A stretch of DNA of 64,000 bases from Flavobacteriales bacterium (lineage in GTDB: Bacteria; Bacteroidota; Bacteroidia; Flavobacteriales_E; Vicingaceae): assembly GCA_018608405.1 (NCBI GenBank), contig JABAZP010000036.1:62001-126000 (forward strand). Reading direction: 5' to 3'. Within the stretch, counting starts at the first letter, position 1, and every line of letters starts with the position of its first letter. The position numbers and the translations under genes are program-made. The notes beneath the pieces are model-generated. The model did not search any database and was not told where the DNA came from. It was given only the letters and a program-made list of their open reading frames with translations. This document shows, piece after piece, positions 46,943 through 62,603 of this stretch.

Positions 46943-47052
46943 GATTGACTATTTCAATTAATTAAAAATGATTTTTTGGAACTCTAAACAAATATTGATT
47001 TTCTTTGCCAAAAATTTTCAAATTTTCGAAAATTCAATTTATACCTTATAAT

Positions 47053-49377
47053 ATGTCTAAAAATCTAGTTATTGTTGAGTCACCTGCTAAAGCCAAAACC
47101 ATTGAAGGTTTTCTTGGAAAAGGATTTACCGTTAAGTCCAGTTTTGGTCATATCAGAGATTTACCCGGCAAAAACATCTCTATCGATATCGAAAATAACT
47201 TCGAGCCACAATATGTGATTTCGGATGACAAGAAGAAGGTAGTAGCTGAATTGAAGAAGTTAGCGAAAGCTGCAGATATTGTTTGGTTAGCAACGGATGA
47301 GGACCGAGAGGGGGAGGCTATTTCTTGGCATTTGGAAGAGGCTCTCGATTTAAAAAAGAAAGAAACGAAACGGATTGTTTTTTCTGAGATAACAAAATCG
47401 GCTATTACTAAAGCGATAGAGAATCCAAGAAAAGTAAATCGAAATTTAGTCGATGCTCAGCAAGCAAGAAGGGTATTAGATCGATTAGTAGGGTATGAGC
47501 TTTCTCCTGTTTTATGGAAAAAAGTGAAACCTTCTCTTTCTGCGGGTAGAGTTCAATCAGTTACAGTGCGCTTAGTGGTTGAACGAGAAAGAGAAATTCA
47601 AAATTTTAAAATCACAGACTTTTTCAGGGTTGTGGGCGTTTTCCAATTATCGAAAGGCAAAAGTTTCAAAGCTGAAGTAAGTTCAAGGTTTAAAAGTTAT
47701 GATGACGCTAAAAGCTTTATTCAAGAATGTGAGAAGTCGAATTATTCAATTAGTGATTTAGTTAAGAAGCCGGCTACAAAGTCACCAGCAGCGCCTTTTA
47801 CAACCTCTACTTTACAACAAGAAGCAAGTAGAAAATTAGGGTTTTCTGTTGCACAAACCATGCTGGTTGCCCAAAAATTATACGAAGCAGGAAAGATTAC
47901 TTACATGAGAACCGATTCGGTAAATCTTTCTGATACAGCGGTAGATGGAGCTAAAGAATACATCACCAAAACCTACGGCGCAGAGTTTTCGAATCCTAAG
48001 AAATACAGCTCAAAATCAAAAGGAGCTCAGGAAGCACACGAAGCTATACGACCAACTAATCTATCAGTCGATAGTCTGGGTACATCAACTCAAGAAAATA
48101 GATTGTATGAGTTGATTTGGAAAAGAACAACAGCTTCTCAAATGTCCAATGCTAGAATTGAAAGAACTACTGCAACTATTAATGTTTCAGAGTCAAAAAC
48201 TGATTTCACAGCCAAAGGAGAAATCTTACAATTTGAAGGGTTCTTAAAAGTTTACTTAGAAGGGAATGACGACGAGGAGGAAGATGAAGAGCAAGATGGA
48301 ATGTTACCAGCAATGAAAGTTGGTGATGACGTTAATATGCATGAAATTATCGCAACACAGCGTTTTACAAAGCACCCCGCCCGTTACCAAGAAGCAAGTC
48401 TCGTAAAAAAATTAGAGGAGTTAGGAATTGGACGACCGTCTACCTATGCCCCAACCATTTCTACAATTCAGAAGAGAGGTTATGTAGTGAAGGAAGAGCG
48501 AGAAGGTGTTGAGCGCAAATACGACGTTCTAACTTTGGATGCAAAAGGAATAAATGAAGGGTCTCAAACTGAACGAACAGGTGCAGAAAAGAATAAATTA
48601 TTTCCAACAGATACAGGAATTGTAGTAACAGACTTTCTTTCGGAGAACTTTAAACAAATTATGGACTACAGTTTTACTGCAGATGTTGAAAAGCAATTTG
48701 ATGATATTGCCGATGGTCAGTTGAAGTGGAATAAAATGATTGAAACATTTTACAACCCATTCCATAAGAATGTTGAGCATACTCTAGAGCATGCAGAAAG
48801 AGCGAAGGGTGAGCGATTGCTGGGTGAGGACCCTGAAACGGGTAAACCGGTTTACGCACGAATAGGCAGGTATGGAGCAATGGTTCAAATTGGTCACGTA
48901 GATGATGAAGAAAAGCCAAAATTCGCTTCTTTACTGAAAGACCAAAGCATTGAGACCATTAGCTATGAAGAAGCGATGGAACTGTTTAAACTGCCAAGAG
49001 AAGTTGGTACATACGAAGATAAACTTGTAACCGCAGCAATAGGTAGATTTGGACCCTATTTAAAGTGGAATAGTTTGTTTATTTCGTTAAAGAAAGCTGA
49101 AGGAGACGATCCTTTTACGGTAGATATGGAAAGAGCTGCAGTTCTTATTGAGGCTAAGAAAGAATCTGAGGCAAACAAATATATAAAGGTATTTGAAGAA
49201 GATAAAGACATCCAAGTATTGAATGGCCGTTGGGGACCTTATATTAAGTTCGGTAAGAAGAATATAAAAATACCAAAGGATGTGGTACCGGAGAATTTGA
49301 CTTTGGAGGAGTGTAAGAAAATTGCTGCCGAAGCACCTGCAAAGAAAAAAGTAGTTAGACGCGCAAAAAAGAAATAG
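47053..49377 (+). CDS. topA: DNA topoisomerase I
   Basis: A 774-residue type IA topoisomerase that relaxes negative supercoils. The Toprim domain begins LVIVESPAKAKTIEGFLG, with the metal-binding LATDEDREGEAISWH. The central domain has SAGRVQSVTVRLVVERE, the active Tyr284 in ITYMRTDSVNLSDTA, EAHEAIRPT and the IGRPSTYAPTISTIQ motif. The C-terminal region has repeated Topo_C-type modules (IGRYGAMVQIG, IGRFGPYLKWN, NGRWGPYIKFG) instead of zinc fingers and ends in a Lys/Arg-rich tail. The ATG at 47053 is used; the open frame reaches upstream to 47005 but with residues foreign to the family. The next gene starts 1 base after the stop. Confidence 0.96.
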   Translation: MSKNLVIVESPAKAKTIEGFLGKGFTVKSSFGHIRDLPGKNISIDIENNFEPQYVISDDKKKVVAELKKLAKAADIVWLATDEDREGEAISWHLEEALDLKKKETKRIVFSEITKSAITKAIENPRKVNRNLVDAQQARRVLDRLVGYELSPVLWKKVKPSLSAGRVQSVTVRLVVEREREIQNFKITDFFRVVGVFQLSKGKSFKAEVSSRFKSYDDAKSFIQECEKSNYSISDLVKKPATKSPAAPFTTSTLQQEASRKLGFSVAQTMLVAQKLYEAGKITYMRTDSVNLSDTAVDGAKEYITKTYGAEFSNPKKYSSKSKGAQEAHEAIRPTNLSVDSLGTSTQENRLYELIWKRTTASQMSNARIERTTATINVSESKTDFTAKGEILQFEGFLKVYLEGNDDEEEDEEQDGMLPAMKVGDDVNMHEIIATQRFTKHPARYQEASLVKKLEELGIGRPSTYAPTISTIQKRGYVVKEEREGVERKYDVLTLDAKGINEGSQTERTGAEKNKLFPTDTGIVVTDFLSENFKQIMDYSFTADVEKQFDDIADGQLKWNKMIETFYNPFHKNVEHTLEHAERAKGERLLGEDPETGKPVYARIGRYGAMVQIGHVDDEEKPKFASLLKDQSIETISYEEAMELFKLPREVGTYEDKLVTAAIGRFGPYLKWNSLFISLKKAEGDDPFTVDMERAAVLIEAKKESEANKYIKVFEEDKDIQVLNGRWGPYIKFGKKNIKIPKDVVPENLTLEECKKIAAEAPAKKKVVRRAKKK

Positions 49378-49378
49378 C

Positions 49379-50539
49379 ATGTCACTGTTTGATTATTTTC
49401 AAAAAGTCGAAACGGATAAAATTGAAGGCTTTCAGTTTTTAACAGAAGGTCAAATTGGAAACCAAATAGACCTTAATCCAAATTCAATCGAAGGGTACGA
49501 TATCGTATTTTTTGATATTGAAGAAGAGAGGGGTAGTATACGGAATAATGGGTGTTCGAAAGGAGCAAACCAAGTCAGAAGTTACTTTTACCAGTTGTAT
49601 CAAGGATTAAATCCTCTTAAAATGGCGGATTTTGGAACTATTTGCCAAGGGGAAAGCGTGACAGACACTTACTTTGCTGTAACTGATGTTATTTCTCAGC
49701 TATTGCGGAATAATGTGATACCCGTATTTCTAGGAGGTTCGCAAGATTTGGTTTATGCGAATTACATGGCCTATACGAAGGAAGAGCAAACTGTTAACCT
49801 GGTAAGTATAGATTCAAAATTTGCACTTGGAAAAGCAGATGAGCCAATTCATGATTTGAATTATTTCTCAAAAATTATCATTCAACAGCCAAATGTTTTA
49901 TTTAACTATTCCAACCTAGGTTATCAAACCTATTTAGTTGATCAAGCCGAGTTGCACTTATTAGAGGATTTGTTTTTTGACAGTCATCGGCTTGGAGAGT
50001 TGAAAGCAGATATAAAAGTGGCGGAGCCGATTATAAGAAACGCAGATTTTGTAAACTTTAGCATGAGTGCTGTCGCTCAACCATATGCCCCTGCGAATAA
50101 AGTGACTTCTGCAAACGGCTTAAATGGGGAGCAAGCTTGTCAATTGAGCAGATATGCAGGAATGAGTGATAAATTAAGTTCGTTTGGTATTTACGATTTT
50201 AATCCTACGATATTTGACCACGGACAGACGGCAAACCTGATTGCTCAAATGATCTGGTACTTTATAGATGGGTTCTATGGTCGAAAGGGAGATTTTCCTG
50301 CCTGCAATAAAAAAGAGTATGTTAAGTATACGGTTAACTTAGAAGAGGGGGAGCGGGAACTTGTTTTTTACAAGAGCCCAAAGTCAGACAGGTGGTGGAT
50401 GAATGTGCCGTATCATTCGAGTTTTATGAAAAAATACGAAAGACATCTAATGCTGCCCTGTGATTATAACGATTATGTTACGGCTACAAAAAACGAGATT
50501 CCGGAGCGATGGTTTCAAACATTTCAAAAATTGAAATAG
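49379..50539 (+). CDS. Ureohydrolase-fold (arginase/formimidoylglutamase-like) protein lacking metal ligands
   Basis: A 386-residue protein with the arginase/agmatinase fold. The family landmarks are aligned but altered: IPVFLGGSQDLVYANY where active enzymes have GGDHS; VNLVSIDSKFALG where they have DAHxD; and ADFVNFSMSAVAQPYAP where they have SFDxDxxDPxxAP. Almost all Mn-binding Asp and His residues are therefore gone, so hydrolase activity is unlikely although database naming would say formimidoylglutamase. The fold is otherwise full length, with an extra C-terminal region of about 70 residues ending in RWFQTFQKLK. It follows topA by 1 base and lies 108 bases before the T9SS gene porP, so a structural or regulatory role is possible (inference). 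Confidence 0.85.
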   Translation: MSLFDYFQKVETDKIEGFQFLTEGQIGNQIDLNPNSIEGYDIVFFDIEEERGSIRNNGCSKGANQVRSYFYQLYQGLNPLKMADFGTICQGESVTDTYFAVTDVISQLLRNNVIPVFLGGSQDLVYANYMAYTKEEQTVNLVSIDSKFALGKADEPIHDLNYFSKIIIQQPNVLFNYSNLGYQTYLVDQAELHLLEDLFFDSHRLGELKADIKVAEPIIRNADFVNFSMSAVAQPYAPANKVTSANGLNGEQACQLSRYAGMSDKLSSFGIYDFNPTIFDHGQTANLIAQMIWYFIDGFYGRKGDFPACNKKEYVKYTVNLEEGERELVFYKSPKSDRWWMNVPYHSSFMKKYERHLMLPCDYNDYVTATKNEIPERWFQTFQKLK

Positions 50540-50647: not shown

Positions 50648-51631
50648 ATGAAGAAGATTTTAATTGCTGTTATGTGTGTGCTTAGTGTGTTCGAAATGAG
50701 TGCGCAACAAGATCCTCAATTTACGCAAAACATGTTTAATAGACTTTCGGTTAACCCGGCTTATGCTGGAGCAAAGGAGTCATTTTGTGCAACGATCATT
50801 TCAAGAGAGCAGTGGATGGGATTTGAAGGAAACCCAACTACTAACTTGTTGAGTGTTGATTATGGAAAAACCATTTTGCAAAAGCATAAAGTTGGAGCAG
50901 GCCTTACGGTTATACAAGATGAAATAGGACCTATCCAGTCATTGAATGCCAAGCTAGCACTATCTTATCATAAAAGAATTCAGCAAGGTGTGCTTTCTGG
51001 AGGTATCGAATTGGGAATTTATAATCAATCAATCGCAGGGGATTGGAGAACATCTGAAGGCGCGTTTGATGGAACTGAAGATCCAAAGATTCCAAATTCG
51101 GAAGCCGGTGCAACAGTATTTGATTTAGGAGTTGGACTTTACTATTACAGGAAGAATATGTATGTGGGGCTATCTTCCACGCACATGGAGCAATCAGTTA
51201 TATCAGACGGTCTAGCTGATTTGTCTGAGTTGACATTTAAAAAAGCTAGACATTATTACGTAATGGCTGGTTATAACTACGAAACTCAACTTGGAGGTCG
51301 GAAATTTGAGATAATGCCTTCTTTCTTTATTAAGGGTGATGCAGTGTCGACACAGGTTGATTTAAATACAAATGTGAAGTACAATGATTTAGTATGGACG
51401 GGTTTTACTTACAGAATCGAAGATGCAGCTTCACTGCTTGCTGGGCTTGATTTTGCTGGCCTTAATTTAGGTGGGCAATTTGATAATATTAAAGTTGGTG
51501 TAGCATATGATTACAACATTTCGGACTTAAGTACGTATAATAATGGAAGTATCGAGTTTATGCTTAATTATTGTTACAAGTTTGTGAAGAACGAAAAAAT
51601 AGAGCGATACAAGGATGTACGCTTTTTATAA
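50648..51631 (+). CDS. porP: PorP/SprF family T9SS outer-membrane protein
   Basis: A 327-residue PorP/SprF protein of the type IX secretion system. Signal peptide (about 1-20, ending MSAQ), then the family start QDPQFTQNMFNRLSVNPAYA, REQWMGFEGNPTTNLLSVDY, GVGLYYYRKNMYVGLSSTH and a C-terminal barrel ending LNYCYKF. PorP-type proteins are 14-stranded barrels that link GldK/PorK or cell-surface adhesins to the system. It lies directly upstream of gldK in the same orientation, as in many flavobacteria. The gap before it has TATCTTAG (one mismatch to the -7 box) at about 50592. Confidence 0.93.
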   Translation: MKKILIAVMCVLSVFEMSAQQDPQFTQNMFNRLSVNPAYAGAKESFCATIISREQWMGFEGNPTTNLLSVDYGKTILQKHKVGAGLTVIQDEIGPIQSLNAKLALSYHKRIQQGVLSGGIELGIYNQSIAGDWRTSEGAFDGTEDPKIPNSEAGATVFDLGVGLYYYRKNMYVGLSSTHMEQSVISDGLADLSELTFKKARHYYVMAGYNYETQLGGRKFEIMPSFFIKGDAVSTQVDLNTNVKYNDLVWTGFTYRIEDAASLLAGLDFAGLNLGGQFDNIKVGVAYDYNISDLSTYNNGSIEFMLNYCYKFVKNEKIERYKDVRFL

Positions 51632-51730: not shown

Positions 51731-53029
51731 ATGAAAAAATTGACCTACATATTATTGATAATGATTGCCGTAACTACTTCGTGTAATTACGACAACGGAG
51801 AAGTCATAGGTGTTCAAGGTAGAGAAAATTGGTACCAGCCTGTTCCATATGGTATGTTATTGATTCCGCAAGGAAGTTTCACCATGGGAAATACTGACCA
51901 AGATGTGCCGGGAGCACGTCAATCAAAGACTAAGGTAGTTTCCTTGGCAGCCTTCTACATGGATCAAACTGAAATTACCAATAACGAATACAGACAGTTT
52001 GTTTACTGGGTAAGAGATTCAATCGCTAGAAAAATTTTGGCGGAAGAAATAGATGAGGAGTATTATTCTAACACAATCAATTCTTACGGAGAAGACATGG
52101 AGCCTCCTACTATTAACTGGTATGCTAAGATGAATTGGATCGGTGAAGAAGAAAGAGAAGCATTGGAGGTAATGTTTTTGCCTGATTACGAGCGATTTTA
52201 TAACAGAAAACAAATAGATACTCGAAAATTAATGTTTGAGTACTCTTGGATTGATTATAGAACAGCTGCCTCAAGATTTAGTCGAGAGCAAGGTCAAATT
52301 GATCGTTCTGTATTTATCAAGAAAGACATCATAAATGTCTATCCAGATACCTTAGCTTGGGTACATGACTTCACATATTCGTACAACGAACCACTAACTA
52401 ATACTTATTTTTGGCACCCTGCATATGATGACTATCCCTTGGTTGGAGTGTCGTGGAAGCAAGCAAGAGCCTTTTCAATTTGGAGAACCGAATTGTTGAA
52501 CAATTATTTAAGAGGTGGTGGGTTTAGTGCTGTTCAGCATTTTAGATTACCAACAGAATCTGAGTGGGAATGGGCTGCAAGAGGTGGTTTAGATAATAAT
52601 CAATTCCCTTGGGGTGGTCCTTACATCAGAAACACTGCAGGATGCTTTTTAGGTAATTTCAAACCATTGAGAGGTAATTATGTAGATGATGGCGGATTGA
52701 ACACTGTTAAGGTATACTCGTACAATCCAAATGATTATGGCTTGTTCTGCATGGCAGGAAATGTTGCAGAATGGACAAGTAATTCTTTTGATGAGTCTGC
52801 TTATGATTTTGCGCATGACATGAACATGGATTACTCATATGAAGCAAAAGAATCTGATCCTCCATCTTTGAAGCGAAAAGTTATTCGTGGAGGATCCTGG
52901 AAAGATGTATCGTATTATTTACACAACGGCACTAGAACTTTCGAATACCAAGATACAGCAAAGTGTTACATCGGGTTTAGAAATGTAATGTCTTTCTTGG
53001 GTAGACCAGAGAATAACGAGGAATTATAG
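51731..53029 (+). CDS. gldK: Gliding motility/T9SS lipoprotein GldK (PorK)
   Basis: A 432-residue outer-membrane lipoprotein that forms the periplasmic ring with GldN. Lipobox TTSC with Cys18; then a formylglycine-enzyme (SUMF1) fold with LLIPQGSFTMGNTDQDVPG, FYMDQTEITNNEYRQFVYWV, VGVSWKQARAFSIWRTELLN, HFRLPTESEWEWAARGG, MAGNVAEWTSNSFD and VIRGGSWKD. A Gln/Tyr-rich insertion (about 110-235) is typical of GldK/GldJ. ATG at 51731 is the right start; the frame opens 57 bases upstream without a signal peptide. It is the first of gldK-L-M-N. Confidence 0.96.
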   Translation: MKKLTYILLIMIAVTTSCNYDNGEVIGVQGRENWYQPVPYGMLLIPQGSFTMGNTDQDVPGARQSKTKVVSLAAFYMDQTEITNNEYRQFVYWVRDSIARKILAEEIDEEYYSNTINSYGEDMEPPTINWYAKMNWIGEEEREALEVMFLPDYERFYNRKQIDTRKLMFEYSWIDYRTAASRFSREQGQIDRSVFIKKDIINVYPDTLAWVHDFTYSYNEPLTNTYFWHPAYDDYPLVGVSWKQARAFSIWRTELLNNYLRGGGFSAVQHFRLPTESEWEWAARGGLDNNQFPWGGPYIRNTAGCFLGNFKPLRGNYVDDGGLNTVKVYSYNPNDYGLFCMAGNVAEWTSNSFDESAYDFAHDMNMDYSYEAKESDPPSLKRKVIRGGSWKDVSYYLHNGTRTFEYQDTAKCYIGFRNVMSFLGRPENNEEL

Positions 53030-53077: not shown

Positions 53078-53890
53078 ATGGGAATAGTAGGGTTTTTATT
53101 TGAAACAAAGAAAGGAAAGAAAATGATGGGCTTGTTGTACGGAATGGGTGCAGCAGTTGTAATTGTTGGCGCATTATTTAAAATTGAGCACTGGCCTGGT
53201 GCATCTGCCATGTTAATTACAGGTCTTTCCGTAGAAGCGTTAATTTTTGCAGTATCTGCCTTCGAGCCACCACACAGTGAGGTAGACTGGACTTTAGCTT
53301 ACCCTGAACTAGCAGGAATAGAAGATGACGCTTTAACAACAGCTTCCTCAAGAAGAGGAGGATCTGCTTCTCAGGAATTAGATCAAATGTTAGAGGAAGC
53401 TAAAATAGGACCTGAGTTGATTGAAAGCTTAGGTACAGGATTTAGAAATTTAGCTGATCACACGTCTAAGTTAAACGACATTTCTGAAGTAGGAACAGCT
53501 TCTAACGAATTTGTTGGAAACATTAAAGATGCATCCTCCAAAATGGCTAACCTTTCATCTTCTTATGAAGCAGCATCTGAGACTTTGACAGGTTTAACCG
53601 TATCTTCAGAAGACAGCAACGCTTATTCAGAAAGTTTAAGAAACATTAGTTCTAAGCTAAGTGAGTTGAATAATGTATATGAATTGCAGTTGAAGTCAGC
53701 TTCAGAGCACATGCAAGCTAGTAATTCTGCTTTTGAAGGTATGGATACGTTGATGAACAACCTTAACAGTTCTATCGAAGGAACCGAGAAGTATAAAACT
53801 AACATTGCTGAATTAGCGAACAACTTAAGTTCTTTAAATAAAATTTACGGTAACATGTTAACAGCTATGAACCCAGGTGGTCAAGCATAA
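53078..53890 (+). CDS. gldL: Gliding motility/T9SS motor protein GldL (PorL)
   Basis: A 270-residue inner-membrane protein. Two membrane helices near the N-terminus (about 15-37 and 41-62: LLYGMGAAVVIVGALFKIEH, then MLITGLSVEALIFAVSAF) are joined by a short turn containing the conserved Glu of KIEHWPG. The remainder is a long cytoplasmic helical/coiled-coil region rich in Ser, Asn and Leu. GldL and GldM form the proton-driven rotary motor of the type IX system. It lies 48 bases after gldK. The gap contains a short direct repeat (AATCAATTAACT twice). Confidence 0.96.
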   Translation: MGIVGFLFETKKGKKMMGLLYGMGAAVVIVGALFKIEHWPGASAMLITGLSVEALIFAVSAFEPPHSEVDWTLAYPELAGIEDDALTTASSRRGGSASQELDQMLEEAKIGPELIESLGTGFRNLADHTSKLNDISEVGTASNEFVGNIKDASSKMANLSSSYEAASETLTGLTVSSEDSNAYSESLRNISSKLSELNNVYELQLKSASEHMQASNSAFEGMDTLMNNLNSSIEGTEKYKTNIAELANNLSSLNKIYGNMLTAMNPGGQA

Positions 53891-53929: not shown

Positions 53930-55567
53930 ATGGCAGGAGGTAAATTACCACCACGACAGAAAATGATTGGGATGATGTATTTGGTACTAACCGCTTTATT
54001 AGCGATGAACGTGTCAAAAGATATCCTTAATGCATTTGTTACGGTAAATAGTGGCTTGGAGAACACCAAGAACAACTTTAAAGATAAAAACGAGGATCAG
54101 TATACACGATTTTCCAATCAGTATGCAGAGAACAAAGAGAAGTTTGGAGACGGATGGGCGAAAGCTCAAAAAGTGCAGAAACTAGCCGATGAATTAGTGA
54201 CTTATATTGACGATATAAAAGTTAAAATTATTGCGGGTATTCAGCCGGAATATACTGAGGAAACAGCTCGAGGAAAAAATCAATTCGGAATTGACACAAT
54301 TCTTGATTTAAAATATGTGAAGGTAAAGGATAATTATCTAATTCCAACGCAGATTTTGGTAGGTTCAGAGCCTGCGAACCCAAAAACTGACGAGTATTCG
54401 GCAATGGACTTAATGAGCAAATTGACAGTTTTTAAGAATGAGTTAAAAACCTTTGTTCCGAAAGACTCTCCAATCCAAACTTCTTTAGAAGAAACATATA
54501 AGTTTGAGGAAAGAAGAGCAGCTGGAGGTAATATGGAGAACTGGCCATCGTGGAATTTCTATGGTGTTCCTTGTGCTGCAACAATTACATTATTAACCAA
54601 AATGCAAACAGACGTTAGAGCATTTGAATCTGATGTAGTAAAGTATTTGTTTGGAAGTGCAGATGAATTAACATATAAGTTTACTGGTTTAGCACCTGCG
54701 ATTATACCTAATTCAAATTACGTAATTGCAGGAGATACATTTAGTGCGAAAGTTTTCTTAGCAGCATTTGATACAACGATGTCTCCTGAAATCTTATTAG
54801 GAGAAGGTTATGATTCAACTACCAAAAAGATTACTGGTGAAGAAATTCCAATTAATGTAGTGAAAGGTAATGGTTATATCAAAATTCCAACTAGATCTCA
54901 AGGTCTATTCTCGTACAAAGGAGTAATAAACTTTAAAGGTCCAAAAGGAATGGAGCAATATCCATATTCTATAGATTATCAAGTTGCAGCCCCGAGTACA
55001 ACAATTTCTGCTACGGCAATGAATGTTTTCTACATTGGGGTTCCTAATCCAGTAGATATTTCTGCTTCTGGTGTGCCAAAAGATAAAATTTCGGCATCTG
55101 TTTCGGGTGGATCTATTTCAAAAGCGAAAGATGGTTGGCTAGTGAATGTTAAAACTCCTGGAAAGGCAGTGGTTAGCGTTTCTGCTGAGATTGATGGAAA
55201 CCGTCAAAAAATGGGTTCAATGGAATTTCGTGTGAAAAGAATTCCAACACCTATTGCTGAGATTGGAGGAAAGTCTTCAGGCGCTATTCCAAGAGGTAAG
55301 CTTGCAGGAACCTCAGGTATTATTGCTCAAATGGAGAATTTTGAATTTGATGTTAGAGTAGTAGTTTCATCATTTAAGTTTGTTTATACTCAAGCGAATG
55401 GATTATCAAAAGAGATTCCTGTAAAAGGTCCTAAGTTTAGCGACCAGGTAAGAGGGATTTTAAGACAAATCAAACCTGGCTCTAGAGTTACATTTGAAGA
55501 CATTAAGGCTACTATGCCTGATGGAGAGCAAAGAAAGCTTGGATCAATTGTGCTTAAGGCAGTTTAA
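53930..55567 (+). CDS. gldM: Gliding motility/T9SS motor protein GldM (PorM)
   Basis: A 545-residue protein with one N-terminal membrane helix (MIGMMYLVLTALLAMNVSKD, about residues 12-31) and a long periplasmic part made of a helical domain and beta domains ending in GSIVLKAV. Family start MAGGKLPPRQKMIGMMYLVL is exact. GldM connects the GldL motor in the inner membrane to the GldK/GldN ring, spanning the periplasm. Length is close to the usual 510-550. It is 39 bases after gldL and 11 bases before gldN. Confidence 0.96.
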   Translation: MAGGKLPPRQKMIGMMYLVLTALLAMNVSKDILNAFVTVNSGLENTKNNFKDKNEDQYTRFSNQYAENKEKFGDGWAKAQKVQKLADELVTYIDDIKVKIIAGIQPEYTEETARGKNQFGIDTILDLKYVKVKDNYLIPTQILVGSEPANPKTDEYSAMDLMSKLTVFKNELKTFVPKDSPIQTSLEETYKFEERRAAGGNMENWPSWNFYGVPCAATITLLTKMQTDVRAFESDVVKYLFGSADELTYKFTGLAPAIIPNSNYVIAGDTFSAKVFLAAFDTTMSPEILLGEGYDSTTKKITGEEIPINVVKGNGYIKIPTRSQGLFSYKGVINFKGPKGMEQYPYSIDYQVAAPSTTISATAMNVFYIGVPNPVDISASGVPKDKISASVSGGSISKAKDGWLVNVKTPGKAVVSVSAEIDGNRQKMGSMEFRVKRIPTPIAEIGGKSSGAIPRGKLAGTSGIIAQMENFEFDVRVVVSSFKFVYTQANGLSKEIPVKGPKFSDQVRGILRQIKPGSRVTFEDIKATMPDGEQRKLGSIVLKAV

Positions 55568-55578
55568 AAAATAATACT

Positions 55579-56436
55579 ATGAAAAAGGTTGTATTTAGTT
55601 TTTTAGTAACATTATTTATTGTTCAAGTTGCTTCTGCACAAGGAGACAATAAGGTGTTAGATGGTGTTTTTATTAAAGAAACATCACCTACTCGAAGGGT
55701 AATTCCATATACTCATGTGAGAGAAGCGGATGTTACCTACCTTAAAAGAGTATGGCAAATCATTGATTTGAAGGAAAAAATGAACCATCCTTTGTATTAT
55801 CCTTTGTCTCCAATTAAAGAGATTGGATATGAGCGGTTAAGTTTATTTGATGTGATCAAGAATGCTGTTGAGGCAGGAGAGATGACAGCATATGACGAAG
55901 ATGGTGTTGGAGGACAATTTCAAATACCCCTTCCTAAAAGTGAAGCGATTGGGAAGTTGTCTAAAGAGATTTCTTCTACTGATATCGATGCAGAAACAGG
56001 CTTAGAAGTTCAAACGAGTTATAATGAAGTATTAACAGCTGGAAACGTTAAAAGCTACAGAATTAAAGAAGATTGGTTTTTTGATCGAGAACGTTCGGTA
56101 ATGGAAGTGCGTATTATTGGTATTTTACCGGTAATCGAAACGCTTAATACGGAAACGGGTACTACCAGAAAAGAAGGTCTATTTTGGTTATATTTTCCTG
56201 AAGCTCGATACGTTCTAGCAAATCATGAGGTGTACAACACCCAAAATGATGGTTCTAGAATGACTTTTGAAGATTTGTTTAGAAAGAGAATGTTTTCAAG
56301 TTTTATTTACAAGGAGACCAATGTTTATGACAATAGAATCTTAGATGATTATACTAAAAATATAGACCGATTATTAGAAGCACAAAAAATTCAACAAGAA
56401 ATTGTGAATTTTGAACATGATATGTGGGAGTACTAA
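55579..56436 (+). CDS. gldN: Gliding motility/T9SS ring protein GldN (PorN)
   Basis: A 285-residue periplasmic protein with a signal peptide (about 1-20, ending ASAQ). Family segments are LDGVFIKETSPTRRVIPYTH, READVTYLKRVWQIIDLKEK, NHPLYYP and RIKEDWFFDRERSVMEVRII. GldN forms rings with GldK beneath the outer membrane. It is the last gene of the T9SS core cluster and is followed by a terminator. The SprA translocon and the PorV/PorU attachment components are not in this window. Confidence 0.95.
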   Translation: MKKVVFSFLVTLFIVQVASAQGDNKVLDGVFIKETSPTRRVIPYTHVREADVTYLKRVWQIIDLKEKMNHPLYYPLSPIKEIGYERLSLFDVIKNAVEAGEMTAYDEDGVGGQFQIPLPKSEAIGKLSKEISSTDIDAETGLEVQTSYNEVLTAGNVKSYRIKEDWFFDRERSVMEVRIIGILPVIETLNTETGTTRKEGLFWLYFPEARYVLANHEVYNTQNDGSRMTFEDLFRKRMFSSFIYKETNVYDNRILDDYTKNIDRLLEAQKIQQEIVNFEHDMWEY

Positions 56437-56454: not shown

Positions 56455-56490
56455 AAAGCCCTAATCTATTTAGATTGGGGCTTTTTTTTT
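56455..56490 (+). terminator. Terminator after gldN
   Basis: A 14-bp stem AAAGCCCTAATCTA with its complement (one G-T pair) and a very short loop, followed by ten T, lies 18 bases after the gldN stop. Confidence 0.88.
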
Positions 56491-60429: not shown

Positions 60430-62603
60430 TTGCCCATAATGGATAAGAATTTGATTCGCATCATTCGAAGCTCTTCTTCCGAATAGGTTTCATCAAACTC
60501 TTGTATTGCATCGTCAATAGAATCTTCTTCAGTTTCCCTGAAATAGTCAATTATTTCTTCTTGATACTCTTCATCAAGTAAGTCATTTAAAATGTGGTCT
60601 AAATTTATTTTTGTTCCACTAGCAACAATGTGTTCTATTTCTTCCAAAATATCGTCAACGTCCTTCCCTTTGGCGGTAGCTATATCCTCTAGTGTCAACT
60701 TTCTATCAATACTTTGGATAATAAATACTTTTAAACCTGATTTATTAACAACAGATTTAACAATCATGTCATCCGGTCGTTCTATCTCATTTTCTTCAAC
60801 ATACTGCTTTATTGCTTCCAAGAATGGTTCGCCGAACTTCTCTGCTTTCCCTTGACCAACTCCAGTTATATTACACAGTTCTTCCATGGTAATTGGATAC
60901 TGAGTTGCCATATCTTCAAGAGACACTTCTGCGAAAATGACATATGGAGGCAAATCTTCATCTCGAGCTACCTCTTTTCTAAGTTCTTTCAATATGGCAA
61001 ACAATTCTTCGTCAGAAGCTCCCCCTTTAGCATTGGCAGAAATAACAGGGGCGCTGGCATCGTATTTTTTCGGCTCTACCATTGTAACACTATGCGGGTT
61101 GTCCAAAAACTCTCGTCCCTTATCACTAATTTTTAATACACCATAATTCTCAATTTCCTTAATGATGTAATTGTTGATAATCGATTGTCGTATAATCGAA
61201 TTCCACTTAATTTCTTCAATGTCCTTTCCAGCACCAAATGACTTGTGTTCGTCATTTCTCAACGATTTGATTTCGCTAGTAATCTCTCCTGCTAAAAAGT
61301 TAGAGATGTAATTAGCTTTGAAATTTTCTTTCAATTCTAATATGGTACTCATCAGTAAAACCATACTGTCTTTTGCGTCAAATTCAACCCTTGGGTTAAT
61401 ACAATTGTCACAATTTCCACAGTTTTCTTCTTCGTAGGTTTCACCAAAGTAGTGAAGCAATTGTTTTCTTCTACAAACGGCAGTTTCCGCATAAGAAACT
61501 GTTTCGAAAATCAGTTGCCTTCCTATTTCTTGTTCCGCTACAGGTTTTCCTTGTAGAAATTTTTCAAGCTTTTCAATGTCTTTGTAACTGTAAAAAGCAA
61601 TGCATCTGCCTTCTCCGCCATCTCGTCCTGCTCTTCCTGTTTCTTGGTAGTAACCTTCTAAACTCTTAGGAATATCATGATGTATTACAAACCTAACGTC
61701 CGGTTTGTCAATCCCCATACCGAATGCAATAGTTGCTACAATCACATCAGCTTCTTCCATCAAAAACATGTCTTGATGTTTTGCTCTTGTTGTTGCATCT
61801 AATCCAGCATGGTAAGGAAGTGCTTTTACGCCATTGACTTGAAGCGTTTCAGCAACCTCTTCTACCTTTTTTCTACTTAAGCAATATACAATACCAGACT
61901 TGCCTTGGTATTGATTAATATATTTTACAATCTGCGAATTAGCTTCTTTTTTTGGATTTACCTCGTAGTAAAGGTTGGGTCGGTTAAATGAAGCTTTAAA
62001 TACATTGGCATTTGACATGCCCAAATTTTTCTGAATATCTTGCTGTACTTTAGGTGTTGCAGTAGCAGTTAAAGCAATAATAGGGACTCTATGAATGGCT
62101 TCAATAATCTCTCTTAACCTTCTATATTCTGGTCTAAAGTCATGACCCCACTCTGAAATACAATGTGCCTCATCAATGGCAAAGAATGAAATTTTAATGG
62201 TTTTAAAGAAGTCTATATTGGCTTGCTTTGTTAAGGTTTCTGGAGCAACATAAAGCAATTTAGTTCTACCGGCAACTAAGTCTTCTTTAACAATGCCTAA
62301 ATCAGTCTTATTTAACGAAGAATTCATGAAATGCGCGACATGGTTTCCCGTAGAAAAACCTCTAATGGCATCTACTTGGTTCTTCATTAACGCAATTAAC
62401 GGAGAAACTACAATTGCAGTTCCTTCTGACATTAATGCAGGTAATTGATAGCACATGGACTTGCCACCCCCTGTTGGCATTATAACGAAGGTGTCATCGT
62501 CTTGCAAAACGCTTTCAATTACCTGCTCTTGTTCTCCTTTAAACTTGTTGAAACCGAAGAACTTTTTCAGTTGATCAGTAAGCGACATGGACGCTGTTTG
62601 CAT
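60426..62603 (-). CDS. recQ: ATP-dependent DNA helicase RecQ
   Basis: A 725-residue superfamily 2 helicase with 3'-to-5' activity in recombination and repair. Walker A is [19 protein letters not shown] (about 39-57), with [19 protein letters not shown] (DEAH), [11 protein letters not shown] and the [22 protein letters not shown] motif VI region. Four zinc-binding cysteines follow ([15 protein letters not shown], with an upstream Cys in [14 protein letters not shown]), then the winged-helix RQC domain. A C-terminal HRDC domain (about 530-610) and an acidic tail of about 100 residues end the protein. Start at 62603 (MQTASMSL) or the second ATG at 62588. Confidence 0.96.

Follow-up and report, generated by a model that had tools for sequence, protein, structure and literature searches.

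The type IX secretion system (T9SS) drives both gliding and secretion, and to our knowledge few cytosolic proteins have been tied to it, PorX being one. In P. gingivalis, PorL and PorM are described as inner-membrane parts with cytosolic regions, with PorX binding the PorL tail (PMC5005315, in excerpt). In arginase, one of the two manganese ions is held by H101, D124, D128, and D232 and the other by D124, H126, D232, and D234, with H126 and D234 serving the latter ion only (as given in an excerpt of PMC7370999, whose assignment we converted to rat numbering). Ureohydrolases that have lost catalysis are already known, and a link of such a protein to T9SS appears to be the new part here; no paper on this pseudo-ureohydrolase gene was found in the open-licence PubMed Central literature. 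Here, we describe an unnamed gene that stands in the same row as T9SS genes and is common across Bacteroidia, and whose product we read, with a probability of roughly one half (about 0.5), as a cytosolic, non-catalytic relative of HutG taken over as a putative T9SS or gliding accessory protein.

The gene occupies 49379-50539 of the window (i.e., the whole 64,000-nucleotide stretch of DNA that was analysed; all features given here lie on its forward strand), opens with an ATG, and encodes 386 aa. It was expected to lie between topA and porP, which the Pfam and TIGR matches of both neighbours bear out. The stop codon of topA (DNA topoisomerase I; 47050-49377; Pfam) ends at 49377, a single base before the ATG, while downstream follow a gene for a porP/sprF-type T9SS membrane protein (50648-51631; TIGR03519, 241 bits, cut-off 90.55), gldK (51731-53029; TIGR03525, 577 bits, cut-off 350), gldL (53078-53890; TIGR03513, 236.8 bits, cut-off 68.3), gldM (53930-55567; TIGR03517, 325 bits, cut-off 180), and gldN (55579-56436; TIGR03523, 204.7 bits, cut-off 85.9). 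Directly after gldN, at 56455-56484, sits a terminator-like hairpin of 13 pairs with a T run, a call that rests on its place and T run, as terminator-like sites were in no excess across the scanned region (6 vs. a shuffle mean of 5.6). Four such sites fell on the gene strand (one inside gldL, two inside gldM, and the one after gldN, which has the best T run), and none was found on that strand between topA and gldL in the scanned region. Judging from this arrangement, a single transcript from topA through gldN is plausible. Sigma-70-like promoter sites were likewise in no excess (25 vs. a shuffle mean of 31.1) and are uninformative on an inner promoter, and the one match to what we take to be the Bacteroidota-type promoter pattern lies at 62597, far from the pseudo-ureohydrolase gene.

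Relatives were sought in the contigs of one genome per species (84,980 species), and the best 80 of 393 relatives were kept. Among the loci of these best 80, topA is the immediate upstream neighbour in 70 of 74 that were testable and porP the immediate downstream neighbour in 50 of 74; gldK lies no more than 3 kb away in 40 of 63. A phylum-wide draw of 30 loci gave the order topA-gene-gldK in 16, topA-gene-porP-gldK in 2, and neither within ~1.5 kb in 12; the first of these orders occurs in loci that are, in our judgement, Flavobacterium-like. The gene is thus encoded with core T9SS genes, as a T9SS accessory would be, in the window and in the 50 loci beside porP, but not in several groups: in at least four (f2, f3, f9, f10) it is away from topA, porP, and gldK-N, and there are groups in which it sits among unrelated genes, e.g., rmuC or that for D-Ala-D-Ala carboxypeptidase. 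GldL is present in 19 of 20 genomes that were picked for gldK not being near the gene. In one family (L120-L122), the divergent gene adjoins a Mur ligase gene, on the far side of which lies a gldJ-like gene; the gldJ-like products score just under the curated GldJ cut-offs, and porP occurs in two of the three loci.

That topA is a steadier neighbour than porP (70 vs. 50 of 74), at a distance of one base in the window, could mean that the protein works with topoisomerase I or in some other housekeeping process, and that its T9SS neighbours are incidental. We consider this unlikely, since 14 loci picked to represent other groups have no topA immediately next to the gene, since the gene in L132 and L120-L122 stands by T9SS or gldJ-like genes without topA, and since no GldL-lacking genome of the order draw (below) carries it, whereas topA is universal as far as is known. 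In two of the 14, L119 and L125, topA lies 2.5 to 3.6 kb from the gene.

Co-occurrence with T9SS was assessed in two draws of genomes. In the order draw (121 genomes), 85 match the profile, of which two (G703 and G756) were counted as non-carriers because their matches are weak and coincide with strong ones to PF00491. GldL is present in every one of the 83 clear carriers, while none of the nine genomes without GldL is a carrier (Fisher p 1.4e-5, or 5e-5 with G706, a GldL-lacking genome that has SprA, taken as T9SS-positive). A clear copy was missing from 29 of the 112 GldL-positive genomes. Corrected for ancestry no further than the family level, the gene occurs in 59 families, GldL only in 19, and neither in 6 (p 4e-4). 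As a control, other ureohydrolases were found in 71 of 112 GldL-positive vs. 4 of 9 GldL-negative genomes, which is not significant (p 0.30). GldB is not a clean control: its matches occur in 112 of the 121 genomes, three of them in GldL-lacking genomes but under the GldB cut-off; as GldB over its cut-off is therefore also absent from all nine GldL-lacking genomes, the gene-GldL pattern may partly reflect the joint loss of many genes.

The same draw bears on the idea that the protein is a metal-free partner subunit of an active ureohydrolase. The metformin hydrolase subunit MetCb is such a case within this fold (PMC11271267, in excerpt), the window genome has three ligand-complete relatives, and 58 of the 83 carriers likewise have another PF00491 match. 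However, the gene is the sole PF00491 match in 17 of the 83, PF00491 matches nothing in 5 more, and no active relative stands beside the gene in the window, so that an obligate partnership is rejected as a general rule and this reading is very improbable. The one-match carriers G586, G690, and G761 stand outside the 17, and either way the control gives p 0.28 to 0.30.

In the class draw (296 genomes; the class, Bacteroidia, was inferred from named relatives), 279 genomes match the profile at E 1e-10, though some of these may be catalytic relatives, e.g., G462 (E 1.6e-29). Gene and GldL occur together in 275, the gene only in 4, GldL only in 12 (i.e., 12 of 287 GldL-positive genomes have no clear copy), and neither in 5 (p 4e-5). 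Three of the gene-only genomes (G436, G500, and G623) are rich in cargo-tail matches (79 to 150, the latter being as many as were scored), and their GldL was therefore probably overlooked, while G438, counted among those with neither, has SprA and 33 cargo-tail matches and probably possesses T9SS but not the gene; with these four taken as T9SS-positive, the counts become 278, 1, 13, and 4 (p 4e-5). The remaining gene-only genome, G346, has an intact copy (L103/L126), neither GldL nor SprA was found in it, and it gave one cargo-tail match; G002, of the same genus, has GldL. As far as tested, G346 is a true exception. SprA was searched in 14 genomes and cargo tails in 17, and the T9SS-free G230, G238, G340, and G574 are in both draws. 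Hence, the gene is confined to GldL-positive genomes in the order draw (83 of 83), with G346 as the counter-case in the class draw: it mostly goes with T9SS, and T9SS does not need it. The original prediction of a role near T9SS or gliding thereby gains from gene order and co-occurrence, and loses by G346 and by the many T9SS genomes without the gene.

All three metal-binding blocks of the window protein had been called altered, and all three are changed as described, except that the middle one keeps its D124-type ligand. Ligand positions are given in what we take to be rat-arginase numbering. By alignment, the former GGDHS block reads GGSQD (residues 119-123; 49733-49747), with the H101-type ligand replaced by Gln, as in 75 of the 80 relatives. 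The former DAHxD block reads SIDSKFA (residues 143-149; 49805-49825), its first Asp kept, its His changed to Lys, and its last Asp to Ala, where the 80 relatives have the first Asp in 79, the His in 2, and the last Asp in 64. The former SFDxDxxDP block reads FSMSAVAQP (residues 227-235; 50057-50083), with both Asp changed to Ser, the first Asp being present in 73 and the second in none of the 80. The ligands H101, D124, H126, D128, D232, and D234 are thus Q, D, K, A, S, and S, leaving D124 as the sole ligand kept; five of six are replaced, and the protein does not have the two-metal, six-ligand site.

Across 123 aligned members (redundant rows that come to ~47 after weighting at 70 percent identity, with the near-duplicates L085, L126, L129, L131, and L133 left out), none has all six ligands and none has H126 and D234 together. 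At the second site, H126 is His in 7 and D234 is Asp in 3, and the site is broken in all; at the first, D124 is kept in 117, D128 in 97, and D232 in 110, while the H101 position is occupied by Gln in 105 and by His in 9. His, Gln, or Asn together with three Asp occurs in 97 of the 123 (8 with the true His), a possible one-metal site with which most relatives could hold one metal. At most one ligand remains in 14 members: the window protein and the five relatives nearest to it, L010 and L011, and six from two further groups. L119 and L125 show the reverse of the usual pattern, having lost all ligands save an Asp at the D234 position, where the alignment is uncertain. Given that the second site is broken throughout and the first largely kept, and that D128 loss is common to the members of the window lineage clade (7 rows, SH-aLRT 99), loss of the second metal site probably came first, with that of the first site following later, more than once. 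The expectation that relatives would share the window's changes holds for D234 (Asp lost family-wide), H126 (nearly always lost), and H101 (mostly Gln), but not for D128 and D232, whose loss is limited to the window lineage and a few others.

A one-metal set kept by most relatives would also suit a protein that is still an enzyme, using one metal or a new chemistry. That seems unlikely to us, because the set has been lost in the window lineage and others and because the catalytic hydroxide of arginase bridges both metals (PMC7370999, in excerpt).

The loss of ligands has not been accompanied by decay of the gene. The protein family is spread across Bacteroidia, with only weaker matches outside the window's class (best 150.7 bits), of which the three read (L115-L117) are HutG-like with five of six ligands. 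A quick tree (59 rows, 54 of them from the family; long branches, no bootstrap, and the divergent L120-L123 left out) groups the family into a single clade (SH-aLRT 96) that adjoins HutG-like proteins found beyond the window's class. Among named relatives, Vicingaceae bacterium AH-578-N02 (L005; 96 percent) is the nearest, and it gives the only pair for which dN/dS is usable, as dS for the pseudo-ureohydrolase is saturated in six other pairs; to it, dN/dS is 0.017 for the pseudo-ureohydrolase, next to 0.024 for TopA, 0.039 for PorP, 0.014 for GldK, and 0.038 for GldL. Purifying selection on the gene is strong. No stop was found inside the matched part in 79 of the 80 fetched relatives, and L060 ends at a contig end. 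At L046:4872-6041, one in-frame stop lies near the C-terminus with the frame open beyond, which may be an error or real. Stepwise ligand loss and the L046 stop are what a decaying pseudogene might display, but the dN/dS of 0.017 and the open frames lead us to reject that explanation, to which we assign next to no likelihood. Of the findings that would have counted against a maintained pseudo-enzyme, i.e., close homologues with intact ligands or decay by stop codons, neither was seen apart from L046 (one internal stop in 80, and 0 of 123 members with six ligands), and the original prediction of a kept, non-decaying protein stands. The family thereby shows a metal enzyme losing its site stepwise while the protein is under strong selection.

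The window protein was also said to be full length with the rest of its fold intact, and its AlphaFold2 model agrees (mean pLDDT 90.0, pTM 0.92). The best structural match is T. cruzi formiminoglutamase (4myn, an N114H variant by its PDB title; Z 36.1, rmsd 2.0 A, 278 residues), with 4mxr and 2a0m essentially level (Z 35.9). The alpha/beta/alpha fold of the predicted model and the sequence profile (Pfam Arginase PF00491, 39 bits, cut-off 22) place the protein in the ureohydrolase (arginase) superfamily. Only residues 13-305 are spanned by at least one in five structural matches. The last helix (283-302) carries QMIWYFIDG (50246-50272), invariant in a 25-row alignment, and is followed by a C-terminal module (residues 304-386; 50288-50536) that lies beyond the arginase fold and outside most structural matches, and contains PC.Y.DY and, by alignment, RWWM (50390-50401).

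Conservation is spread over the fold, with Q183, G247, W293, and W339 among the most conserved columns. Mean entropy is 2.35 for the former DAHxD loop, 1.68 around the first block, and 1.57 around the third, and the RWWM segment has the lowest value (1.36). The C-terminal module as a whole is no more conserved than the core (1.99 vs. 1.83 for residues 41-303), and we reject a shift of conservation to it; only the RWWM stretch stands out. In the strongly divergent L120 and L121, which lie near gldJ-like genes, RWWV and CSY.DY are kept while the metal half has drifted, and in L122 they are kept only partly. Modelled alone, the module reaches a middling pLDDT of 76.5 and gave no Foldseek match under E 0.001 (best Z 2.9), its best PDB sequence match is a spectrin chain (E 0.085), and its Pfam matches occur in single members only (E 0.007 or worse). 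Its fold is not recognised among known ones and is not thereby new.

These values also bear on the possibility that the protein is a sensor, one that takes up a small ligand (one metal together with a guanidino or amino compound) in its old pocket and links secretion, or some other process, to nutrient state. The set H/Q/N, D, D, D in 97 of 123 members is close to the first-Mn ligand set, and T. cruzi formiminoglutamase also has Asn instead of His; most members have E (weighted 0.73) as the residue of the substrate-binding-Glu type; conservation is fairly high around the first and third blocks; and the absence of extra conservation in the C-terminal module as a whole adds slightly more weight. 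We regard a sensor as possible but doubtful, as the window protein, like 13 others, retains one ligand at most, the Glu-type residue is Asp in the window and Asn in 9 of the 10 rows L104-L113, and the middle block varies comparatively strongly.

Among named families, the window protein scores best with hutG (TIGR01227), at 72.7 bits far below the cut-off of 229.15. Within Pfam and NCBIfam, only general arginase, agmatinase, and hutG models match it, the NCBIfam ones far below cut-off, and it matched no PADLOC (anti-phage) or PHROGs (phage) family and no plasmid. Its neighbours, topA and porP-gldKLMN, are not those of a histidine-use cluster. The window genome has three other arginase-family proteins, all with six ligands. 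One of these (L003; G000:C26:16475-17260) is flanked by hutI (418 bits, cut-off 298) and ftcD (330 bits, cut-off 221) and is, by its location, probably the true HutG of this genome, so that histidine use probably has its own enzyme. As L003 itself reaches just 48.9 bits with the hutG model (cut-off 229), that model may miss proteins of its type, and the hutG cut-off alone is weak evidence on the window protein. Another of the three (L001; G000:C37:151025-151795) is an agmatinase over its cut-off; decarboxylase-like and deoxyhypusine-synthase-like genes, both under their model cut-offs, lie next to it in a possible polyamine cluster. Database entries in which proteins such as the pseudo-ureohydrolase are labelled formimidoylglutamase would mislead models of histidine use.

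The window protein has no hydrophobic N-terminus, which PorP, GldK, and GldL have, and is therefore probably cytosolic. Under our preferred reading of a HutG relative taken over by T9SS or gliding, loss of the second metal site would have ended ordinary hydrolysis, and the leftover one-metal pocket would then have eroded in some lineages, the window's included, so that the protein there probably does its work without a metal. The protein would act by binding another protein, perhaps via the C-terminal RWWM/PC.Y.DY module, and MetCb may serve as precedent for the same fold surviving without metals as a protein binder (PMC11271267, in excerpt). Its most likely contact would be the cytosolic part of the GldL/GldM motor, in assembly or control, by analogy with PorX on PorL: the protein has no export-type N-terminus, GldL and GldM alone of the core reach the cytosol, and the hydrophobic N-termini of GldK and PorP make GldL or GldM the likelier contact. 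Taken further, and only tentatively, the protein could be an old, widespread, and unnamed cytosolic part of T9SS, i.e., a ureohydrolase that no longer catalyses but attaches to the base of the GldL/GldM motor, perhaps by its C-terminal module of unrecognised fold, and helps to assemble or control it.

Set against the known systems, the window protein resembles HutG in fold (Z 36.1 to the T. cruzi protein), in best profile (hutG, matched by 25 of 25 members), and in best PDB sequence match (3m1r of B. subtilis), and differs from it in having no second-metal ligands, an extra C-terminal module, and a score far below the hutG cut-off. We know of no tie to a secretion system for the arginase-like protein of Trypanosoma brucei. 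By the titles of its PDB entries (4rhm and others), that protein shares the ureohydrolase fold and the loss of the Mn cluster. MetCb shares the fold without metals and itself serves to bind a protein (PMC11271267, in excerpt), but its catalytic partner is encoded next door, whereas 17 of 83 pseudo-ureohydrolase carriers have no other PF00491 match. PorX is a response regulator with a CheY-like domain and not a ureohydrolase, yet it is cytosolic and binds the T9SS motor subunit PorL (PMC5005315, in excerpt), and it thus offers a model for how the pseudo-ureohydrolase might act.
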